In this document: in pieces, positions 2,258-47,392 of the stretch
How the letters are laid out: the number at the start of each line of letters is the position of its first letter
Position numbering within the stretch: the first letter of the stretch is position 1
Source: Dysidea avara
Lineage: Eukaryota; Porifera; Demospongiae; Dictyoceratida; Dysideidae
Assembly: GCF_963678975.1 (NCBI RefSeq)
Contig: NC_089280.1
Span: forward strand, 13,405,280 to 13,469,279
Reading direction: 5' to 3'
Length of the DNA stretch: 64,000 bases
The notes under the pieces: model-generated
Databases searched by the model: none
The model's input: only the letters and a program-made list of their open reading frames with translations
Told to the model about the DNA's origin: nothing
Translations under genes and position numbers: made by a program

Positions 2258-2427
2258 CACAGGTTCTAATAGTTCTTGCGCGTCGACAAATTTAAAGCGG
2301 AAGTCACGTGTGGTAATTCTAGTTTGAAGTTCAAAAATAAATTGATTTGATTGGTCCATTTGGTCGAAATCCTATGCACGTGATTTTGCTTGTTTTTGTT
2401 GTCGCGCAAGAACTATTAGAAGCTGTG
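2258..2427. mobile_element. 170-bp MITE with TA target duplication
   Basis: The ends are inverted repeats of about 25 bp (CACAGGTTCTAATAGTTCTT on the left, its near complement ending GAAGCTGTG on the right), flanked by TA on both sides. The empty site is visible elsewhere in this window: the equivalent position at 1730-1745 reads TATCACTATTAACT with a single TA. TA duplication is typical of Tc1/mariner-type elements. It is non-coding. Confidence 0.85.
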
Positions 2428-2441
2428 TATTAACTATATTT

Positions 2442-3987
2442 GGCCAAACCAAATTTTTAGGAAAGTTAATTGATGTCTCTTTGAGTGCTACCAAGAAAGC
2501 TGCAGGCAAGCGTATGATAAGCCATCTTACTGACCTACTTTCTGCATCTGACTCACTCCCCATCCGTGGTGAGTACAAACTGTGGATTTACCGGAACTAT
2601 ATTCTCTCACTGACACGGTTTCATTTGTGTGTTGATGCTGTCTCCAGGGGGACCATCTCCAAGTTAGAATCTATTGCCACACGGTTTCTGAAGAAATGGC
2701 TGAATTTGCCCCGGAGTGCTACACGAGTTATTCTGTACTACCCAGGTGTTTGTTGTCCTAGTATTTCTCATGTCTCCAGGGAGGCAAAACTAAGTTTGCT
2801 AGCCTGTGTCAGTGCCTCCTCTGACTTGCGGCTCCAGGAACTTAACCTCCATTTGCGTCTTGGGAATGTTGCTCTACAAATCCAAGACAATGACTATTCC
2901 ATCCTGTCGATTGCTCAAAAACAATTATCTGCCTTCCCATCAGCTCGGTCGTTATATATTAAGGCTAAGCACCAGTTGTCAGATTCCATCAAAGCTCAAT
3001 GCAAAGATCATTTACAGTCACTAACTGTTCAGTCAAAGTTTGAGAGTTCCGCTGAACTAGAGAGCTCCTGTAAAACTTGGAACAGGCTACTGAAGGGATT
3101 CCACCCCGGTCAATTGTCATTCCTCCTTCGTGCAGCATCTGACACTCTACCCACCGCTGTGAATTTACAGAGATGGTCCATCCTATGTGAAGCGAAGTGT
3201 TTGCTTTGTGACTCACGGCGCCCAACAACTGCTCATGTTTTAAGTAGCTGCCCTGCAGCATTAAATCAACAGCGGTATACCTACCGTCATGATCAGGTTC
3301 TTCGTGTTTTGGCCACTAAACTTTCTGAAGCATTTGCTGACATCCCATTTGTTAAAGTGTTTGCTGATATACCTAATTTCCATGCCGACAATTCTCCACA
3401 GTCTACAATTCCGATGAGTCTCCTTATTACATCCTACCGTCCAGACATTGTAATATATAATTCCCAGAGTTCTTCCATCACTCTGTTGGAACTAACATGC
3501 CCTCTGGACTCCATCCATCACATCCAGTCTGCTCGCAATAGGAAGCAGAGCAAAACTGAGTATCTACAGCTGTTGGCTGAATTTGATCGCCTAAATATTG
3601 CTAACTATTATGACACCATTGAAATCACGGTACTTGGTCATTTTCAAGTGTCTTCCATCAAGAATTTATCTAGTTTGTTAAACTTCGTTCAAGCTGATAT
3701 AAGGATTTCGAAGCACATTATTAAGGAATGGTTAGATGCTGCTGCCTCTGCCAGTATCTCTGCCTCAGAGAATTTTTCTAGCACGAAACTGTACAGAGTG
3801 GTGCACAAATTAGACAGTTTTATTTTTGTAATTACAGTAATTAGTCTTTTTTGTTGTTGTTGTTTTACCTTGCCATGCCCACAGTGTAGTCCTCTACTTT
3901 TTGTGTTCGCATGCTGTCCGAGGTTTCACATGCCTATTTGTTTTGTTGTACATCTTTTCATCACAATTGTCAATGATGGTTCTCTCT
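2442..3987 (+). CDS. RLE-type LINE, 5'-truncated C-terminal region
   Basis: This is a 5'-truncated non-LTR retrotransposon inserted in the junction of two repeat modules. The frame is open from before 2400 to 4034, and the recognisable protein begins about TKFLGKLIDV at 2445. Numbering from the TTG at 2481, the order is: reverse-transcriptase thumb/connection (1-100); a zinc knuckle CX2CX8HX4C (C240, C243, H252, C257); and a restriction-like endonuclease core RPD (320-322), E337 and a K/R-rich KxxxY stretch (355-361), as in R2/CRE-type elements. The catalytic RT motifs are missing, so it cannot be autonomous. The frame runs on into module B beyond the probable element end, so the last ~80 residues are probably not native. 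Identification of the endonuclease is by motif pattern. Confidence 0.75.
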
Positions 3988-3992
3988 CTTGG

Positions 3993-5325
3993 CAGGTGGT
4001 CAGGTTGTTTAATCACGTGATCAGGTGCACGTGATCCCCTATCAACGCAGGTCGGTGACAAGCACGTACAGACGATTGCGCGATCTTTGCAACAAAAACC
4101 GTCAAGCGAAAACCGAAAACGTGATCCATCTGCTTTGAAAAGGTGCCGAAATACGTAACAAGCTCACGTTTCCATTGACTTCCTGTGTTGCATAGATTCC
4201 GAAATCGTCTGTAGCTGTTTTCGAGCCTTTGTTGTAATCTGTATGGCTCGATGTAGGATTTTTGGCCCCTGCAGCTAACTCGAGCCTATCTGGACGAGAG
4301 TTCCATAGCCCAAAGAAAGCCCATAATGGGGTAGTAGGGGGTTCTAAGTGGCTAGTTGGAGTAGTTTAAACCTTGTCAAAAATGATCATCTTGTTTGAGC
4401 TTGGTTTTCCTATCGCCCAGACGAGGTCGTCGCCTTTGATAGGCACTGTTAAGCGTTAGCGCCATAGGGTTAGCATGTGTGTCTGCCTATTCATGGCTAC
4501 CTGGCCACCTCTATGTAAACCGTGCCAGCAGCGCAGTTTAGGAGCTGCAAATTGCTATTGGTTGTTGATACTGCCGGGCCGGTATAGAAAGGAATCTATT
4601 TCAAAACGTTAAGTGAGTGATGTTGTATCAGTGCCATGCCCTGGTTTGGCGAGCAATCCACTGTCAGCGGACTACCCCAGCTTCATCGATACTTAGCTGC
4701 GTGACACTACAGGCTTTGTTTGATTGAAGTTTTATGGTCATAGTTATGACTCAGTTATGCTAAGACTGCTTGCTATAGGTGTGTCACCAGCGTGGTGCAA
4801 AGTTGGCAGTATCAGTAGCCGTAGCTATAGCTTGTTATTAATCTATAATGTACGTGTGTATGCAAGTGCGTTTAGTGGCTGCATGGCCTGTTGGATTTTT
4901 GCACTGTAGTCATGTGATGACCTAGCTGATGTGCAGTTGCGCTCTGTCCCCAGCTCGCAATGCAGTCATAATGAGTAATATTGGCTCACCTATTTGTGCA
5001 CTCTTGACACAATCATAATTGACGTGTTCCCCGTATCCGGAGAATTGAGGCACATCCCAGTCTGATGTGTCTATGTGTCACTAATCTGATACTGCTTAGG
5101 CAATCTCACATCTCTATTTATATTGTAGGTATGTGTGTTAACCATGCCTGGTGTGATTTCAATAAACTAGTGCATGATACCGCTGGCACTTTTACGCACG
5201 ACGAGTTGAAGTTCGATCACACGAGCCAGCAAATGGCGCCTTCTGCATCACGTGCGTAGCTGGCTGGAGGCGTGCGTGATTCTTTTTGTGCTAACCACAG
5301 TTAAGCTATTAACCTCCATTATATA
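3993..5325 (+). repeat. Module B, left copy (L2) of the giant inverted repeat
   Basis: It starts with the same GGCAGGTGGTCAGG sequence as module A and ends with the same CACTTTTACGCACGACG...AACCTCC block, but between CCATAGCCC (about 4315) and CACTTTTACGC (5188) it carries about 870 bp unrelated to the ~115 bp found there in module A. The inverted partner is 11830-12858, and identity is high over most of the length. No convincing coding frame is present. Confidence 0.85.
4069..4211. mobile_element. 143-bp MITE inside module B
   Basis: The termini CAGACGATT and AATCGTCTG are inverted, and TA flanks both sides (4067-4068, 4212-4213). The other module copies have the uninterrupted sequence CACGTAGCTG at this point (for example 1822-1831), which proves a clean insertion. 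It is non-coding. Confidence 0.85.
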
Positions 5326-6019: not shown

Positions 6020-6370
6020 GGTGGATTGGCAGCTACATCAGTAGCACTCAAACATCAGCTACGTCGGTAGCACTCATATCAGCTACGTCGGTAGCACTCA
6101 CATTAGCTACGTCGGTAGCACTCAAACATCAGCTACTTCAGTAGCACTCACATCAGCTACGTCAGTAGCTCTCAAACATCAGCTACGTCAGTAGCTCTCA
6201 AACATCAGCTACTTCAGTAGCACTCAAACACCAGCTACGTCGGTAGCACTCAAACATCAGCTACGTCGGTAGCACTCACATCAGCTACGTCGGTAGCACT
6301 CACATCAGTTACTTCAGTAGCACTCAAACATCAGCTACGTTGGCAGCACTCAAACATCAGTAGGCATTCC
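6020..6370. repeat. Minisatellite block 1, 24-26-bp unit
   Basis: About a dozen head-to-tail units of the type AGCTACGTCGGTAGCACTCA plus ACATC. Each unit contains the short inverted repeat GCTAC...GTAGC. Units of 24 bp (without one AA) and 26 bp alternate. Confidence 0.95.
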
Positions 6371-7296: not shown

Positions 7297-10090
7297 CTAA
7301 CATCAGTAGCACTCGCACCAGCTACGTTGGTAGCACTTGCACCAGCTACGTTGGTAGCACTCATACATCAGCTACATTAATTGGTAGTAGCACTCAAACA
7401 TCAGCTACATTGGCAGCACTCACACATGAGCTACATCAGTAGCACTCAATATGTCATTAACACCTAGACTTGAGCTGTCAGTAGCATTCAATTTATTATT
7501 AACACCCAGACACGATCTGTCAGTAGCACTCAGACATGAACGATGTTGGTAGCGCTCAAATGAGGTAAGTTGGTACTCAAACATCAGCTATATCTCACAA
7601 TGTGGGCCATGTTGGTAGCACTCACACATGAGCTACAACGGTAGCACTCAAACATGAGCTACATTGGTAGCACTCAGTCAAACACTATAGCTGTGTTGCA
7701 AACATGAGCTATGTCAGTAGCAGTCAAACATGAGCTACGTCGGTAGTACCCAAACCTGAGTTACATCAGCAGCACTCAATATGTCAGTAACACCCAGACA
7801 TGAACTACATCACTAGTAGCCAGACACGTATAGCACCCAGAGATGAGCTATGTTGGTAGCACTCTAATGAGGTAAGTTGGTACTGAAACATGAGCTACAT
7901 CTCACAGTATGAGCTATGTCAGTAGCACTTAAACATGTGCTATGTCAGTAGCACTTAAACATGTGCTATGTCAGTAGCACTCAAACTGAACTACTATACA
8001 TCAGTAGCACTCAGACATAAGCTACATTGGTAATACCCAGACATGAGCTACGTCGGTAGCACCCATACATGAGCTACATCGGTAGCACTCAAATGTGGTA
8101 AGTTACACATGAGCTATGTCGGTAGCACTCAAACATGAGTCACAACTGTAGAAAAATACATTGGTAGCAGTCACATATGAACTACATCGGTAGCACTCAA
8201 ACATGAGGTACGTCGGTAATAACCTGAGTGACATCGGTAGCACTCAATATGTCAGTAACACCCAGACATGAGCTGTCAGTAGCACCCAGACATGAGCTAC
8301 ATCAGTAGCTGTAGCCAGACATGAGCTATGTTGGTAGCACTCAAGTTGGTACTCAAACATGAGCTACATCTCACAACGTGAGCCATGTCGGTAGCACTCA
8401 CACAGCATAAGCTACGCCGGTAGCACTCAAACATGAGCTACATTGGTAGCACTCACACATGAGCTATGTCAGCAGCACTGAAACATGAGTTAAGATGGTA
8501 TAGCACTCAAACGAGCTATGTCAGCAGTTCTCAAACATGATCATGAGCAACATTGGTAGTACCCAAATCTGAGTTACATTGGTAGCACTCAATATGTTGG
8601 TAACACCCAAAATGAGCTGTCAGTTGCACTCAGACATGAGCTACATCACTAGTAGCCAGACATGAGCAGCTATAGCACCCAGAAATGAGCTACGTTGCTA
8701 GCACCCAAATGAGGTAAGTTGGTACTCAAACATGAGTCTACATCTCACAATACGAGTTATGTCGGTAGCACGTAAACATGAACTACTATACGTCAGTAGC
8801 ACTCAGACATGAGCTACATTGGTAGTGCCCAGACATGAGCTACATCGGTAGCACCCATAATTAATGTGGTAAGTTAAAAGCTTTCACACATGATCATGAG
8901 CTATGTCGGTAGCACTCAAACATGAGTTACAACAGTAGAACTCCACCATAAACATATTGGTAGCACTCAAGCATGAACTACATCAGTAGCACTCAAAACA
9001 TGAGCTACATTGCAAACACTCAAGAGTGAGTAGCACTCAAACATGAGCTACATCAGTAGCACTCAAAAGAGGTACGCTGGTAGCATTCAAACACGAGCTG
9101 TCAGTAGCAAGCAAACATGAGCTACAAACATCAGTAGCACTCAGTATCAGACATGAGCTATCTTGGTAGCACATAAACATGAGCAGTCAGTAGCACTCAA
9201 ACATTAGCTATACCAATAGCACTCAGACAGGAGCTATGTCAGTAGCACTCAAAAGAGGTAATTATACAAGTCGGTAACACGGGCTACTACACTCAGACAT
9301 GAGCTATGTTGGTAGCACTCAAACTCAAACATGAGCTACATCAGTAGTACTCAAACATGAGCTACATCAGTAGCATGCAAACATGAGCTACGAACATCAG
9401 TAGCACTCAATTTCAGACATGAGCGATGTTTGGTAGCACTCAAACATGAGCTATATTAGTAGCACTCAGACATGAGCTACTTGGTACATAGCACTCAAAA
9501 GAGGTAAGCTGGTAACATGAGCTACATCAGTAGCACTCAGACATGAGCTGTGTTGGTAGCACTCAAACATGATCTACATCCATGTAACACTCAAACATGG
9601 GCTATGTCAGTAATACTCAAACATGAGCTATATCATTAGCATTATGTGGACATGATCATGAGCCATGTTGGTAGTACTCAAACATGCTTACATGAGCTAC
9701 ATCGCTGATGCTCAAACATAAACTACATTGGTAACACTCAGACATGAGCTATATTGATAGTACCCAGACAGGAGCTCCCAGACATGAGCTATGTAAGTCT
9801 GTAGCACTCAAAAGAGGTAAGCTGGTAGCACTCAAACACGAGCTGCACAAGACATGAACTACATTAGTTGCAGCCATACATGAGCTATGTCAGTAGCACT
9901 CAGATGAGGTAAGTTGGCAGCTCTCAAACATGAGTGATGTCTGTAGCAATCACACATGAGCTATGCCAGTAACACTCAAACATGAGCTATGTCGATAGCA
10001 CTCAACCATGAGCTACATCAGTAAACGTGGGCTACATCCATAGTACTCAAATATGGGCTACATTGGTAGCTCTCAAACATGAATGATGCA
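7297..10090. repeat. Minisatellite block 2, about 2.8 kb
   Basis: More than a hundred diverged units of the same family as 6020-6370, here mainly CATGAGCTACATCGGTAGCA plus CTCAAA. Units vary at a few positions (ATC/GTC/GTT, CGG/AGT), and some are shortened or joined by short spacers. Unlike a CRISPR array there are no spacers of constant length; the units themselves abut. No open frame of note runs through it. Confidence 0.95.
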
Positions 10091-11829: not shown

Positions 11830-12858
11830 GCCAGCGGTATCATGCACTAGTTTATTGAAATCACACCAGGCATGTTTAACACACATACCTACACTATAAA
11901 TAGAGATGTGAGATTGCCTAAGCAGTATCAGATTAGTGACACATAGACACATCAGACTGGGCTGTGCCTCAATTCTCCGGATACGGGGAACACGTCAATT
12001 ATGATTGTGTCAAGAGTGCACAAATGGGTGAGCCAATATTACTCACTATGACTGCACTGCGAGCTGGGGACAGAGCGCAACTGCACATCAGCTAGGTCAT
12101 CACATGACTACAGTGCTAAAATCCAACAGGCCATGCAGCCACTAAAACGCACTGGCATACACATGTACATTATAGATTAATAACAAGCTATAGCTACAGC
12201 TACTGCCAACTTTGCACCACGCTGGTGACACACCTATAGCAAGCAGTTTTAGCATAAGTCATAACTATGACCATAAAACTTCAGTCAAACAAAGGCTGTA
12301 GTGTCACGCAGCTAAGTATCGATGAAGCTGGGGTAGTCTGACAGCTGATTGCTCGCCAGACCAGGGCATGGCACTGATACATCACTCACTTAACGTTTGA
12401 AATAGATTCCTTTCTATACCGGCCAGTATCAACAACCAATAGCAATTTGCAGCTCCTAAACTGCGCTGCCGGCACGGCTTACATAGAGGTGGCCAGGTAG
12501 CCACGAATAGGCAGACACACGTGCTAACCCTATGGTGCTAATGCTTAACAGTGTCTATCAAAGGTGACAAGACCTCATCTGGGCGATAGGAAAACCAAGC
12601 TCAAACAAGATGATCATTTTTGACAAGGTTTAAACTAATCCAACTAGCCACTTAGAACCCCCTGCTACCCCATTATGGGCTTTCTTTGGGCTATGGAACT
12701 CTCGTCCAGATAGGCTTGAGTTAGCTGCAGGGGCCAAAAATCCTACATCAAGCCATACAGATTACAACAAAGGCGCGAAAACGCAATAGCAGCTGCGTGC
12801 TTGTCACCGACCTGCATTGAGAGGGGATCACGTGATTAAACAACCTGACCACCTGCCA
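11830..12858 (-). repeat. Module B, right copy (R1), inverted
   Basis: This is the reverse complement of 3993-5187, lacking the 143-bp MITE of the left copy and lacking the final CACTTTTACGC block. It forms the inner right arm of the giant inverted repeat. It meets the next module through a 12859-12961 junction equivalent to 1641-1751. Confidence 0.85.
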
Positions 12859-12961
12859 AAAATATAGTTAATGGTGATACCACCAGCATCTACTAAATGT
12901 ATTTCGATGAATACTTAATACCACCAACAACCACAATACGTGATTCGATAAATATGTGCTA

Positions 12962-13378
12962 AATGGAGGTTAATAGCTTAACTGTGGTTAGCACAAAAAG
13001 AATCACGCACGCCTCCAGCCAGTTACGCACGTGATGCAGAAGGCGCCATTTGTTGGCTCGTGTGATCGAACTTCAACTCGTCGTGCGTAAAAGTGCCCCA
13101 CCACTCCCAACCCCGTTCTACGAACTCCACCACATACTCCCTTACTCCTAATAAACAAGGAATAAAGTGAAAGGTCAGATCCTTCTCCACAGCACGGGCT
13201 ATGGAACTCTCGTCCAGATAGGCTCGCGTTAGCTGCAGGGGCCAAAAATCCTACATCGAGCCATACAGATTACAACAAAGGCTCGAAAACGCAATAGCAG
13301 CTACGTGCTTGTCACCGACCTGCGTTGAGAGGGGATCACGTGATTAAACAACCTGACCACCTGCCAAAAATATAGTTA
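12962..13378 (-). repeat. Module A, right copy (R2), inverted
   Basis: This is the reverse complement of the body of 1752-2168, ending at GGCAAAAATATAGTT-like sequence near 13378. It forms the outer right arm of the giant inverted repeat and ends about 220 bp beyond the 3' end of the astacin-UBR gene. Confidence 0.85.
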
Positions 13379-13508
13379 TTGAGCTGCAAATTTTGATTTG
13401 AGGGGGACATTTTCATGGATTGGAACCAACTCTTATCAAAATCCAGTGTCTTTATAGGTATTATATGCATTTGCATTATCTTCACAGAAATTATGATTTG
13501 ATAATATA

Positions 13509-13514
13509 TTTATT
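13509..13514 (-). terminator. Polyadenylation signal of the astacin-UBR gene
   Basis: AATAAA on the minus strand, about 85 bases after the stop codon, is a plausible cleavage/polyadenylation signal. The exact cleavage site cannot be seen. Confidence 0.5.
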
Positions 13515-13596: not shown

Positions 13597-15579
13597 TCAT
13601 GTGTTGTTAATTTTGCATTTAGCTTTGCAATAATCCAGGCCGCAGTCACAATAAGCTCCTTGAGAAAGATACTTAAAGTAAACTCTATGCCCGGCATGGC
13701 AGTTTTTAGCACAGGCATAACAACATCCTTCATCTGCTTCTTGAAAACAGTCTAAGCATAGATACCATGGTTGTTTAACATACTGTTTATCTGATGACAC
13801 TCTTGTACAAATTGGTTTTCTGTGTTTATTTTTGCCACAGTCACAATAGAAATTTATTGATGGTGTAACTTCATGCTTGACGGTGGTGTGTCCTTTGTGG
13901 TGATTTATAATACAAAAGGTACAGCAACCATAGTTGGACTCTCCTCCCCAGCAGGTATAACATTCATACCATTCCATTTGCATATGGCGATCTTTAAAGC
14001 GATCATAACTGCACATATCTCGAGTACTAAACTTATCCATAGTTGGAGAAAAATTGCAAATTAAAGTACCCCCACAGTCACATGTGGAAGATGCATTACC
14101 CATTTTGTATACTGAATGAAATTTGTGACAGTGTAGGTAACAACCATAACAACAGCCAAGTTTTGGATTGGTAAAGCAATCATTGCAATGATACCAATTT
14201 TGTTTTACTGGTTTGGGGCCTGTGGATAAAATTGTACACATTGGATTTCTGTGTCTGTATCTTCCACAGTCACATACAAATCGAGCACTGGACATTTTTT
14301 TAAGTTTGTGGCCTCTGTGGTGATCATTTGCACAGAATGTACAACATCCATAGTTAGAATCAGGGCCCCAGCATGTGTAACATTCAAAGTAAGGTGCACT
14401 CCGGTAGATTTCTTTAAAGCGATCGTAGGCACATGTTGTCTCTGTACAAAGACATTCCATTTGACTTGAAAATTTGCACTCAAATTCGATTCCGCAATCA
14501 CATTTAGATGAAGTAGTTCCCATTTTTGTTACTTTGTGTGATTTATGACATGTTTGTGAACAAGCGTAACAGCATCCTTTTCTAGGATTTTTGAAACAAT
14601 CATGGCAGTGGTACCAGGTCTGTTTTACAGGCTTAGCACCAGTAGACAATAAAGTACACATCGGAACTGCATGTCTGTTTCTTCCACAGTCACACACAAA
14701 TTTTATTTGTTCATTCGTTTTACACCTTTTGGTTTCATGATTGTGTGGTTTGTGACACTTGTATGCGCAATAGGTACAGCACCCATAATTTGACTCGCTT
14801 CCCCAACATGTAATGCATTGGAAATATACTCTTATTGAACGATAGTTCTCACCAAACCTGTCAAAAGTACATACCTCTTTCCCATACATTTTATCAATTT
14901 TTTCCAAATCTATATTACTGAAGCCTATTCTTTGCCCAGCTACGTGTCTCTTTTTTTCATCTATGATCATCAGTTTAATATCGCTCTTATCACCAGAATC
15001 TATCTGAGGGTAGTGCATCAAAGACTCGTAATCGTATTTTCCCAACATAGGAGTGCCTACCATTGCATAGTTTACATTGTTGTCCTCATCTATACTCCTA
15101 TGCTCGATCCTACCATCTTGCAAATGAATAACTCGATAGCAATTTACATAATCATTTCTATCAGAACGACAGTGTTCATGCTCCATTCCCAAGGCATGGC
15201 ACATTTCATGTAAAATAGTTCCATATGGTGCTTTACTGTCAATCTTTATTTCTTGATCAGCTCTGATACAACCAACAAATGATGAGCTTCCACTTGAGGT
15301 CTCCACAAACTTGACATAATATTCGGCATTGCAGGTGTAAGTATAGGTCCACAAGACAGGTGTTTTGTCTTGGAAATCCATAATAGCCTTGAGTATGGCT
15401 TCCTTCATTTTATAGGTTACACTTGTGCTAAATGAATAAAATATTTCTCCCTTAGCCCACAGATTCACATCACCACCTTTTTTAAATGCTGTCGCCATAT
15501 CATTTTCATAATCATGGTCTGATTTAAAAGGTCCCTCCTCAACTTGAGGCAGAGGATGCTGCAACCTTCTAGTAAACAT
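13597..15579 (-). CDS. Astacin metalloprotease with six UBR-box zinc fingers
   Basis: This is an uninterrupted frame (664 codons from a TTG at 15591; the first ATG, residue 5, is used here). Residues 40-240 are an astacin domain. The zinc-binding motif HEMCHALGMEHEHCRSDR (128-145) fits HExxHxxGxxHExxRxDR, and the Met-turn SLMHY (190-194) supplies the zinc-ligating Tyr. Downstream are six Cys/His domains, each with C...CxxC...CxxC...HxxH...CDCG, the UBR-box pattern: about 241-303, 312-367, 387-443, 452-507, 527-586 and 595-651. They form three tandem pairs of two alternating subtypes (one with ECYTCWG, the other with WYxCxDCF). Astacins are endopeptidases. UBR boxes in N-recognins bind destabilising N-terminal residues. 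No signal peptide is visible, and only a short N-terminal stretch precedes the protease, so secretion is uncertain unless an upstream exon exists. The fusion is seen directly; its function is inference. Confidence 0.88.
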   Translation of the reverse strand: MFTRRLQHPLPQVEEGPFKSDHDYENDMATAFKKGGDVNLWAKGEIFYSFSTSVTYKMKEAILKAIMDFQDKTPVLWTYTYTCNAEYYVKFVETSSGSSSFVGCIRADQEIKIDSKAPYGTILHEMCHALGMEHEHCRSDRNDYVNCYRVIHLQDGRIEHRSIDEDNNVNYAMVGTPMLGKYDYESLMHYPQIDSGDKSDIKLMIIDEKKRHVAGQRIGFSNIDLEKIDKMYGKEVCTFDRFGENYRSIRVYFQCITCWGSESNYGCCTYCAYKCHKPHNHETKRCKTNEQIKFVCDCGRNRHAVPMCTLLSTGAKPVKQTWYHCHDCFKNPRKGCCYACSQTCHKSHKVTKMGTTSSKCDCGIEFECKFSSQMECLCTETTCAYDRFKEIYRSAPYFECYTCWGPDSNYGCCTFCANDHHRGHKLKKMSSARFVCDCGRYRHRNPMCTILSTGPKPVKQNWYHCNDCFTNPKLGCCYGCYLHCHKFHSVYKMGNASSTCDCGGTLICNFSPTMDKFSTRDMCSYDRFKDRHMQMEWYECYTCWGGESNYGCCTFCIINHHKGHTTVKHEVTPSINFYCDCGKNKHRKPICTRVSSDKQYVKQPWYLCLDCFQEADEGCCYACAKNCHAGHRVYFKYLSQGAYCDCGLDYCKAKCKINNT

Positions 15580-19882: not shown

Positions 19883-19925
19883 CATTTGCCACACGGAGTT
19901 GGCTTTCGAATCATAACTTAGTGGT

Positions 19926-21869
19926 TTGTACTCCGATTCTTCTGTACTACTGCAAGGACTTTCTATAACGATTATTCCAGCTATACACCGATTTTCAGCT
20001 CATTGCTCTAAGCGGTTTGCCACCTATGCAGCAACACGCAATGATGTCAAATGTAAGATACGATCTGCTAGAAATTCTTATGAACGGTCCCTGTTAGACA
20101 AGCTTCGTTCTAATCCAAAAGCACTGTACAGTTACATTAAGTCTAAACAGAAGATTAGACCTAGTATTGGCCCATTGATAAAGAGTGATGGTTCTCTCAC
20201 TGCTGATGACCAGGAGGTGACTGAAACCCTAAACCAATTCTTTGAGTCAACATTTACCAAAGAAAATTTATCTAGTATGCCTGTTCCCTCCTTTGTGTCT
20301 GAAGATAGTATTTGTGATATTGACATAACAGAGTCAACAGTTCTTCAGAAGCTACTTGAGCTCAAGGTTAACAAAGCTCCTGGTCCAGATGGTATACATT
20401 CTTACGTCTTAAAAGCTTGTGCTAACACACTTTATGTACCTTTAACCATTCTGTATTCTCAATCCTTATCTAGTGGTGTCCTCCCTGATGAGTGGAAACA
20501 GGCACACGTTGTTCCTGTTTTTAAAAAGGGTCAAAGAAACCAAGCTTCCAACTACAGGCCAATTAGTTTGACATCTTTAGTTGTTAAGATCCTGGAATCT
20601 ATTATACATTCTGAATTGGTAACCTTTCTTGATGGGCAAGGCATACTTAATGGTGAGCAACACGGTTTTGTTAACAGGAAGTCCTGTTTTACTAACTTGT
20701 TATCAACTTTTGAAGAGTGGACTTCTGCTTTGGATCAAGGATTTGGCATTGATGTCATATTTCTAGACTACAGTAAGGCATTTGATTCTGTACCTCATCA
20801 TAGATTGATCTCCAAGTTGGAAGCATTTGGTGTTCGTGGTAATTTGTCTTTGTGGCTATCAAACTTTCTTTCCAACCGCTTCCAGAGAGTTGTGTTGAAT
20901 GGTCACTTGTCGTCTTGGGCTCAGGTGGTGAGTGGAGTCCCCCAGGGGTCTGTTTTAGGACCCTTGTTGTTTATATTATATGTTAATGACATTCCAGACC
21001 TTATTGAAAGTAATGTAAGAATGTTTGCTGATGATACAAAAATTTATTCTGTTATTCAGAGCTTTGACGATCACCTCAGGCTGCAAAGTGATGTTGACCG
21101 ATTGTTGCAGTGGTCTCACACATGGTTGCTTCGGTTCAATATAGCTAAATGTAAGCTGATGCGGATTGGTAACTCTGCTCCATTCACCTACTCTATGCTG
21201 GACAGTTCCACCAACTTACCCTTTGAAATCACAGAAGTGCAAGAAGAAAAAGATCTTGGTATTTGGTGCACTGAAGACTTGAAACCATCTCTACAGTGTC
21301 GTAAGGCTGCAGCAAAAGCTATGCAAGTTCTTGGTTTGCTAAGAAGGTCCTTCAAACTTTTTTCTGTTGACTTGTTGACTTTTTTGTACAAAATGTATGT
21401 CAGACCTCACTTGGAGTATTGCATCCAGGTCTGGAGCCCTTACTTGGCGAAAGATATTGATCTCCTAGAGAAAGTACAGAGACGTGCCACCAAGTTATTA
21501 CCTAGTTTATTTGATTTATCATACGAAACTCGTCTAGAGAGACTTGGTTTATATTCACTGTATTGTAGACGTCAAAGGGGAGATCTAATTGAGACCTACA
21601 AGATATTGAATGGTTACTATGACATCAACCCTACCTCATTTTTCACTTTGAGTAATACGGATACCACCAGAGGTCACCACCGTAAACTCTTTAAATTTCG
21701 ATCTCGGCTGCTAGTGAGGCATAATTTTTTCACCAACAGAGTAGTTAATTTGTGGAATTCTCTTCCAGCAGATGTTATTTCTGCACCAACTGTGGCATTG
21801 TTTAAGAAGAATCTTGATGATTTATGGAGAACAACAAGATATGGGCACTCTCAAAGGCCTGCGGCCTAG
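19926..21869 (+). CDS. Non-LTR retrotransposon reverse transcriptase (5'-truncated LINE)
   Basis: An open 647-codon frame encodes a complete-looking RT domain of the CR1/L2/jockey type. Visible motifs in order: APGPDGI (about 152-158), YRPISL, motif A FLDYSKAFDSV, motif B SGVPQGSVLGPLLF, motif C FADDTKIY with the catalytic DD, motif D-E, then the C-terminal RPHLEYCIQVWSP...RRATK and FFTNRVVNLWNSLP blocks. The apurinic endonuclease domain that should precede it is absent, so the insertion is 5'-truncated; the first ~20 residues are probably flanking sequence read in frame. The RT itself has no stops, which suggests a fairly young insertion. A short 3' UTR and a (TAA)n tail follow. Confidence 0.9.
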   Translation: MYSDSSVLLQGLSITIIPAIHRFSAHCSKRFATYAATRNDVKCKIRSARNSYERSLLDKLRSNPKALYSYIKSKQKIRPSIGPLIKSDGSLTADDQEVTETLNQFFESTFTKENLSSMPVPSFVSEDSICDIDITESTVLQKLLELKVNKAPGPDGIHSYVLKACANTLYVPLTILYSQSLSSGVLPDEWKQAHVVPVFKKGQRNQASNYRPISLTSLVVKILESIIHSELVTFLDGQGILNGEQHGFVNRKSCFTNLLSTFEEWTSALDQGFGIDVIFLDYSKAFDSVPHHRLISKLEAFGVRGNLSLWLSNFLSNRFQRVVLNGHLSSWAQVVSGVPQGSVLGPLLFILYVNDIPDLIESNVRMFADDTKIYSVIQSFDDHLRLQSDVDRLLQWSHTWLLRFNIAKCKLMRIGNSAPFTYSMLDSSTNLPFEITEVQEEKDLGIWCTEDLKPSLQCRKAAAKAMQVLGLLRRSFKLFSVDLLTFLYKMYVRPHLEYCIQVWSPYLAKDIDLLEKVQRRATKLLPSLFDLSYETRLERLGLYSLYCRRQRGDLIETYKILNGYYDINPTSFFTLSNTDTTRGHHRKLFKFRSRLLVRHNFFTNRVVNLWNSLPADVISAPTVALFKKNLDDLWRTTRYGHSQRPAA

Positions 21870-46652: not shown

Positions 46653-47392
<740 letters not shown>

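Follow-up and report, generated by a model that had tools for sequence, protein, structure and literature searches.

An astacin protease joined to three pairs of UBR boxes in the sponge Dysidea avara, and a clade of astacins that appear to be intracellular

We describe a gene in a 64,000-nucleotide stretch of the Dysidea avara genome (contig NC_089280.1, positions 13,405,280 to 13,469,279; hereafter the window) that encodes an astacin metalloprotease followed by six UBR boxes. The protein belongs to a well-separated clade of astacin-UBR proteins that lack the secretory features tested, and the residues with which UBR4 binds N-termini are retained in this clade mainly in the last box of the array. 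Our leading but tentative reading is that of an intracellular astacin whose last UBR box would pick out clients for the tethered protease by reading their N-terminus.

An intact astacin followed by six UBR boxes

The gene is a single-exon open reading frame (ORF; 13597..15579, minus strand, as are all of its features given below) of 660 amino acids plus stop, running from ATG to stop. A sequence-only reading of this stretch had proposed that one chain carries an intact astacin followed by six UBR boxes arranged as alternating pairs, and Pfam, the ORF and the order of the boxes bear this out. The Pfam Astacin domain covers residues 41-232 (14884..15459; E 8.8e-31, above the curated cut-off), and the protein has the astacin fold. 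Both the HExxHxxGxxHE zinc and catalytic motif (HEMCHALGMEHE, residues 124-135, 15175..15210) and the Met-turn SLMHY (residues 186-190, 15010..15024) are intact. The earlier reading named the right catalytic residues but numbered them four positions too high (H128, E129, H132, H138); with the ATG at 15579 as residue 1, the numbering becomes H124, E125, H128 and H134. The family glutamate E135, whose equivalent binds the mature N-terminus in secreted astacins, is also retained.

Pfam zf-UBR marks six stretches behind the enzyme (E 6.5e-36, above the curated cut-off), one for each of the six boxes. Their order is strictly A-B-A-B-A-B, giving three A-B pairs, and the Cys/His zinc ligands could be read off in every box, with one Cys replaced by His in boxes 3 and 5. 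When the last pair alone was used in a fold search, the first 45 rows were UBR boxes (best E 1.7e-3), in agreement with the Pfam assignment of all six and against another family of zinc fingers. In the DNA the pair is visible as a repeat unit of approximately 420-435 bp, which makes tandem duplication of the pair the probable way in which the array expanded. No second UBR or astacin copy was found in the window by tblastn (11 queries, threshold 1e-3), all 42 matches lying inside the gene.

At 667 codons, against a median of 10, the stop-free run that holds this ORF is the longest in the window, and the protein is 57-61% identical to the first four aligned homologues and 29-42% identical to the other 20 rows; this conservation excludes a chance ORF. 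It is very improbable that the gene is a retrocopy or a functionless pseudogene. Its lack of introns and the reverse-transcriptase-type ORFs on both sides would fit such an origin, but 660 codons are open, the catalytic residues and zinc ligands are kept, and relatives on long contigs are single ORFs as well (P0003, P0004, P0008, P0013 and P0015), so that the lack of introns may be a trait of the family. Separate mRNAs for the astacin and UBR parts are unlikely given the uninterrupted ORF and a distant homologue from EukProt, P0019, which carries both domains under a record name in assembled-transcript form; there the fusion appears to lie on one mRNA. An AATAAA hexamer resembling a polyadenylation signal, by sequence match only, lies approximately 85 bp past the stop (13509..13514).

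The architecture is not wholly unreported, contrary to what the sequence-only reading had supposed. ZF-UBR is listed among the domains linked to astacin catalytic domains in the Figure 1 legend of a 2023 review, without comment in the available part of its text (PMC9848320). This was the sole paper found in the literature searched for astacin together with zf-UBR or UBR box, and likewise for zf-UBR together with Amphimedon.

A distinct astacin clade without the secretory features tested

A first homology search returned 21 proteins, of which 18, the window copy included, carry both domains according to precomputed Pfam labels. Two further searches (33 matches, and the best 120 of 450 matches) added members with one UBR pair and relatives in which the pair follows other heads. 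The homologues carry one pair (P0029, P0031-P0033), two (P0014-P0018), three (the window protein) or four (P0007). The P0032 sequence ends in a UBR pair though it has no Pfam zf-UBR row, and P0042 and P0044 rank high among the matches listed yet are astacins without UBR boxes.

A maximum-likelihood tree built from 88 astacin domains separates 27 astacin-UBR rows plus P0061 from the other 60 rows by a branch with 100/100 support. The UBR label requires two changes in all on this tree. P0061, inside the astacin-UBR branch, has no UBR box and bears a hydrophobic stretch at its end. The order within the clade is unsure because of long branches (P0019, P0040, P0039 and others). Origins outside eukaryotes were considered and rejected. 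Two family peptide patterns searched against genome contigs matched 11 loci, all titled bacteria, over query residues 10-255 only, hence within the astacin portion and reaching no further than the margin of box 1; the same two patterns had no match among viral contigs.

Most members keep the two motifs, HExxHxxGxxHE being present in 29 of 33 family rows and S[ILV]MHY in 26 of 33. Two of the remaining rows for the former motif are fragments without the region (P0045, P0046) and two are changed, both of them astacin-UBR members: P0031 has HLIMH in place of HExxH, and in P0026 the third zinc His is Pro. P0031 and P0026 are possible pseudoenzymes, judging from these substitutions.

Astacins have been described as extracellular proteins that carry a signal peptide, two or three disulfides and a prodomain with the common motif FXGDI (PMC9848320, in the part available). 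The window protein has the catalytic fold, the zinc motif and the SxMHY Met-turn in common with the M12A astacins (meprin, BMP1/tolloid, crayfish astacin), but it departs from them in each of these secretory features, in the UBR array behind the enzyme and, with its clade, in its separate branch of the tree. A Kyte-Doolittle scan of the first 45 residues, made without a dedicated predictor, found no signal peptide, the most hydrophobic 11-mer scoring -0.03. The N-terminal segment (residues 1-40, 15460..15579) holds neither a hydrophobic signal-peptide-like stretch nor FxGD and is mostly of low predicted local distance difference test (pLDDT) score in the structure model. Three-frame translation of 1.7 kb upstream, inspected by eye only, gave no obvious signal-peptide exon. 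Among 25 members a hydrophobicity above 2 within the first 45 residues occurs in P0018 alone, where the stretch lies in the catalytic domain.

The prodomain aspartate switch and the disulfides are likewise absent. FxGD was found in none of 25 astacin-UBR rows, the window protein included, and in six of seven controls (the named animals P0042, P0072 and P0087, and three rows grouping with them in the tree); the seventh, P0044 from a sea anemone, lacks it but begins inside a domain. None of the 27 astacin-UBR rows has C84, the cysteine that pairs with C64 in a disulfide, vs 58 of 61 other astacin rows, bacterial ones included. The partner C64 is kept in 14 of the 27 and C42 in 3 of the 27. At C42, C64, C84 and C198, which form the disulfides C42-C198 and C64-C84, the window protein has P, S, A and K. 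This clade-wide loss did not figure in the sequence-only reading.

Two further features of the family point to the cell interior. Starts that fit the PROSITE myristoylation pattern occur in 3 of 25 members (MGCSAT, MGATNN and MGTSSS, in P0031-P0033) vs 0 of 60 non-UBR matches, and P0040 carries a ubiquitin domain in front of its astacin-UBR part (E 3.2e-21). Taken together, the missing signal peptide, FxGD and canonical disulfides, the myristoylation-like starts and the ubiquitin-bearing relative are what would be expected in a reducing cytosol, and the astacin-UBR clade appears from its sequences to consist of intracellular astacins. The general description of astacins as extracellular proteins (PMC9848320, in the part available) would favor a secreted digestive or matrix enzyme with cysteine-rich extracellular fingers; we regard this as highly unlikely for the window protein in view of its start, of FxGD missing in 25 of 25 rows and C84 in 27 of 27, and of the myristoylation-like and ubiquitin-bearing relatives. 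A clade that has none of the tested secretory features and bears domains of N-terminus readers would extend the astacins into the cell. In the main text of the review, as far as available, the word "cytosol" is absent and "intracellular" occurs once, in a reference (PMC9848320).

The N-terminus pocket and the role of the array

In sequence the boxes are UBR4-like. In UBR4, D1715 binds the alpha-amino group of the ligand while F1671 and F1713 bind its first side chain; F1671A and F1713A each abolish binding, and aromatic residues or Arg are preferred in the first place (PMC10687169, in the part available). The three equivalent positions were read in each box by script. The full set of two aromatics and Asp occurs in the window protein in box 6 only (type B, residues 591-647, 13639..13809), as Y600, Y643 and D645. 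The other type B boxes are degenerate at these positions, with P/K/D in box 2 (residues 308-363, 14491..14658) and P/T/D in box 4 (residues 448-503, 14071..14238). The type A boxes have R/V/D in box 1 (residues 237-299, 14683..14871), Y/V/D in box 3 (residues 383-439, 14263..14433) and H/Y/D in box 5 (residues 523-582, 13834..14013). The window protein thus shares the fold and zinc-ligand pattern of the UBR4/BIG, UBR5 and UBR6/FBXO11 boxes and, in box 6, the aromatic-aromatic-Asp arrangement of UBR4; it differs from them in having six tandem boxes as A-B pairs and no reported E3 ligase domain. That all six boxes read N-termini is unlikely, since only box 6 has the residues of a UBR4-type pocket.

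Retention of the pocket is position-specific across the family. Among astacin-UBR proteins with at least two pairs, the full pocket is present in 0 of 16 first B boxes and in 12 of 16 last B boxes, the window protein being one of the 12. P0005 and P0006 are not counted among these 16 because they stop short of the last B box, nor is P0002, being a copy of the window protein. A stricter pattern script gave 11 of 16 for the last box; it skips box 6 of P0019, which has a long insert and is otherwise read as F/F/D. The subfamily of the window protein, the large subfamily and the distant P0019 all show this contrast between first and last box. Of 25 relatives that have another head or no head at all, 22 keep the full pocket in the last B box. 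Among the ten one-pair astacins or fragments, P0029, P0030 and P0039 have the full pocket, the first position is Arg in P0031-P0033, P0038 and P0046 and Ala in P0041, and in P0040 the pocket script detected no box.

On our preferred reading, an old clade of catalytically complete astacins would work inside the cell, having shed the secretion signal, FxGD and the ordinary disulfides, and the UBR array would be the substrate-selection arm of the protease. The pairs adjoining the enzyme would act as a spacer and offer a surface for contacts; the final B-type box would be a UBR4-like reader that grips the N-terminus of a client with an aromatic or Arg first residue. The tethered protease would then cut the gripped client, amounting to N-terminus-directed proteolysis without ubiquitin. 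If the last box does bind N-termini, animals would have a direct, ubiquitin-free route by which certain N-termini reach a protease.

Several observations weigh against this proposal. The last box lacks the full pocket in 4 of the 16 multi-pair proteins (P0012 and P0015, Asp to Lys; P0016; P0018), and the first aromatic is Arg in P0031-P0033, P0038 and P0046. The counts of 0 and 12 are not independent, many of these proteins being close paralogues, and Asp alone proves nothing because it is also present in boxes without the pocket. The pocket of box 6 is Tyr/Tyr, vs Phe/Phe in UBR4, and Tyr is absent among the UBR4 mutants described in the available part of that study (PMC10687169). On the enzymatic side, 7 of 33 rows have a change at the Met-turn methionine or its neighbor, among them two of the closest relatives, P0003 and P0004 (SVLHY); with the altered active sites of P0031 and P0026, this means that some members need not be active. 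As to location, the hydrophobicity test is weak, exceeding 2 in just 6 of 15 non-UBR controls, many of them bacterial or partial, and five other cysteines in the astacin slice of the window protein make non-canonical disulfides possible.

An explanation that we consider somewhat improbable, yet rank close behind the selection of clients by the last box because five of the six boxes have no evident pocket, is that the array is a general protein-protein scaffold which no longer reads N-termini and anchors the protease to a partner complex. The five boxes without the aromatic pair fit this well; other zinc-finger arrays can act as anchors, and UBR-only proteins exist with arrays of up to 16 zf-UBR stretches (P0035). 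The best fold match of the last pair is the UBR6/FBXO11 box, which is not known to bind N-degrons. What a scaffold leaves unaccounted for is the position-specific retention of the pocket, in 12 of 16 last vs 0 of 16 first B boxes and in 22 of 25 last B boxes of the relatives.

A further alternative, put forward in the sequence-only reading and only one of several conceivable orders of action, is that the astacin cuts a client and a UBR box on the same chain binds the new N-terminus, either holding the product or passing it to degradation machinery. The presence of protease and UBR boxes on one chain invites this idea, and there is a precedent in the functional degradation of NLRP1B, where a protease-made N-terminus is read by a UBR protein, UBR2, as an immune trigger; in that case, as the available part of the source describes it, cutting and reading fall to two different proteins, with ubiquitin and the proteasome acting between the two, unlike the single chain found here (PMC7483925). 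No ubiquitin-ligase module was found in the window protein, for which a Pfam search extended to E 10 gave only zf-UBR, Astacin and, weakly, Peptidase_M10. Several astacins favor acidic residues on the C-terminal side of the cleaved bond. Set against the aromatic or Arg preference of UBR4, given in the part of that study available (PMC10687169), this means that product and reader may mismatch. Since it works only if cleavage uncovers a residue acceptable to the box, we rank this explanation lower and hold it to be quite unlikely.

UBR pairs on other heads and the surroundings of the gene

Related A-B pairs occur behind heads other than a protease. In P0020-P0022 the pair follows an AIG1-like GTPase domain, although the AIG1 score of P0021 is 26.3 against a cut-off of 27. 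In P0068 only, it follows leucine-rich repeats and a stretch resembling NLRC4_HD2 (E 7.4e-5; 23.7 against a cut-off of 33.1). P0068 is 68% identical to the window protein over 26% of the query and ends in a UBR pair though it has no Pfam zf-UBR row. On its 870,738-base contig the leucine-rich repeats run straight into the pair, and the join lies inside a repeat unit; this, with an A box lacking its first Cys, suggests either recent recombination or an assembly error. Eight short proteins consist of a UBR pair (P0055-P0057, P0059, P0060, P0066, P0076 and P0084). Five of the eight have the myristoylation pattern at residue 1; P0056 and P0060 have an MG motif further in, and P0076 starts with MGDAES, which the pattern excludes. 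P0035-P0037 are UBR boxes only, approximately 14-16 in a row.

In a tree of 48 last pairs, those of the AIG1, NLR, short and array proteins group with the pairs of the large astacin subfamily at 80/84, which is below the firm-support mark of the program, and the root is arbitrary. The AIG1-like, NLR-like and short proteins thus have a related A-B pair in common with the astacin-UBR protein but no protease, their heads being annotated by Pfam. From sequence, the UBR pair looks like a module common to apparently intracellular proteins, two kinds of which seem to be of immune type, and these relatives make a link to immunity testable. A bolder version of our reading, to which we give distinctly lower credence and regard as unlikely, would make the protein a cytosolic animal N-degron protease that chooses clients by their first residue, with the UBR pair as an interchangeable intracellular module for immunity or damage sensing, found on protease, AIG1-GTPase and NLR-like heads alike; a role in quality control would also be conceivable. 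No paper was found in the literature searched for AIG1 together with zf-UBR, and UBR was not mentioned among the matches listed from the sponge, NLR and domain-architecture literature. As far as searched, it is not in print that the clade looks intracellular, that the pocket is kept mainly in the last box, or that AIG1-like and NLR-like heads share the pair.

Pfam was run on 16 window translations, including the astacin-UBR protein and an ORF at approximately 62.7-63.7 kb at two lengths, out of 102 stop-free runs of at least 75 amino acids. Besides the astacin-UBR gene, only zf-RVT and RVT_1 matches passed the cut-off among these 16; matches below it included PHD, Snapin_Pallidin, TreT_GT1 and others. 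The retroelement ORFs flank the gene, with RVT_1 at 19917-21866 and zf-RVT at 2346-4031. A tRNA scan of the window found none. At 46655-47347 lie 231 perfect, uninterrupted CTG triplets (693 bases, 100% matches), across which several reading frames of both strands stay open; the array is very long for a pure triplet repeat and may be either real or an assembly effect. A 186-base direct repeat with 96% identity (12688-12873 and 13196-13381) lies just past the 3' end of the gene, and two tandem arrays, both of period 26 and built from related units, occupy 6030-6360 and 9029-9641.
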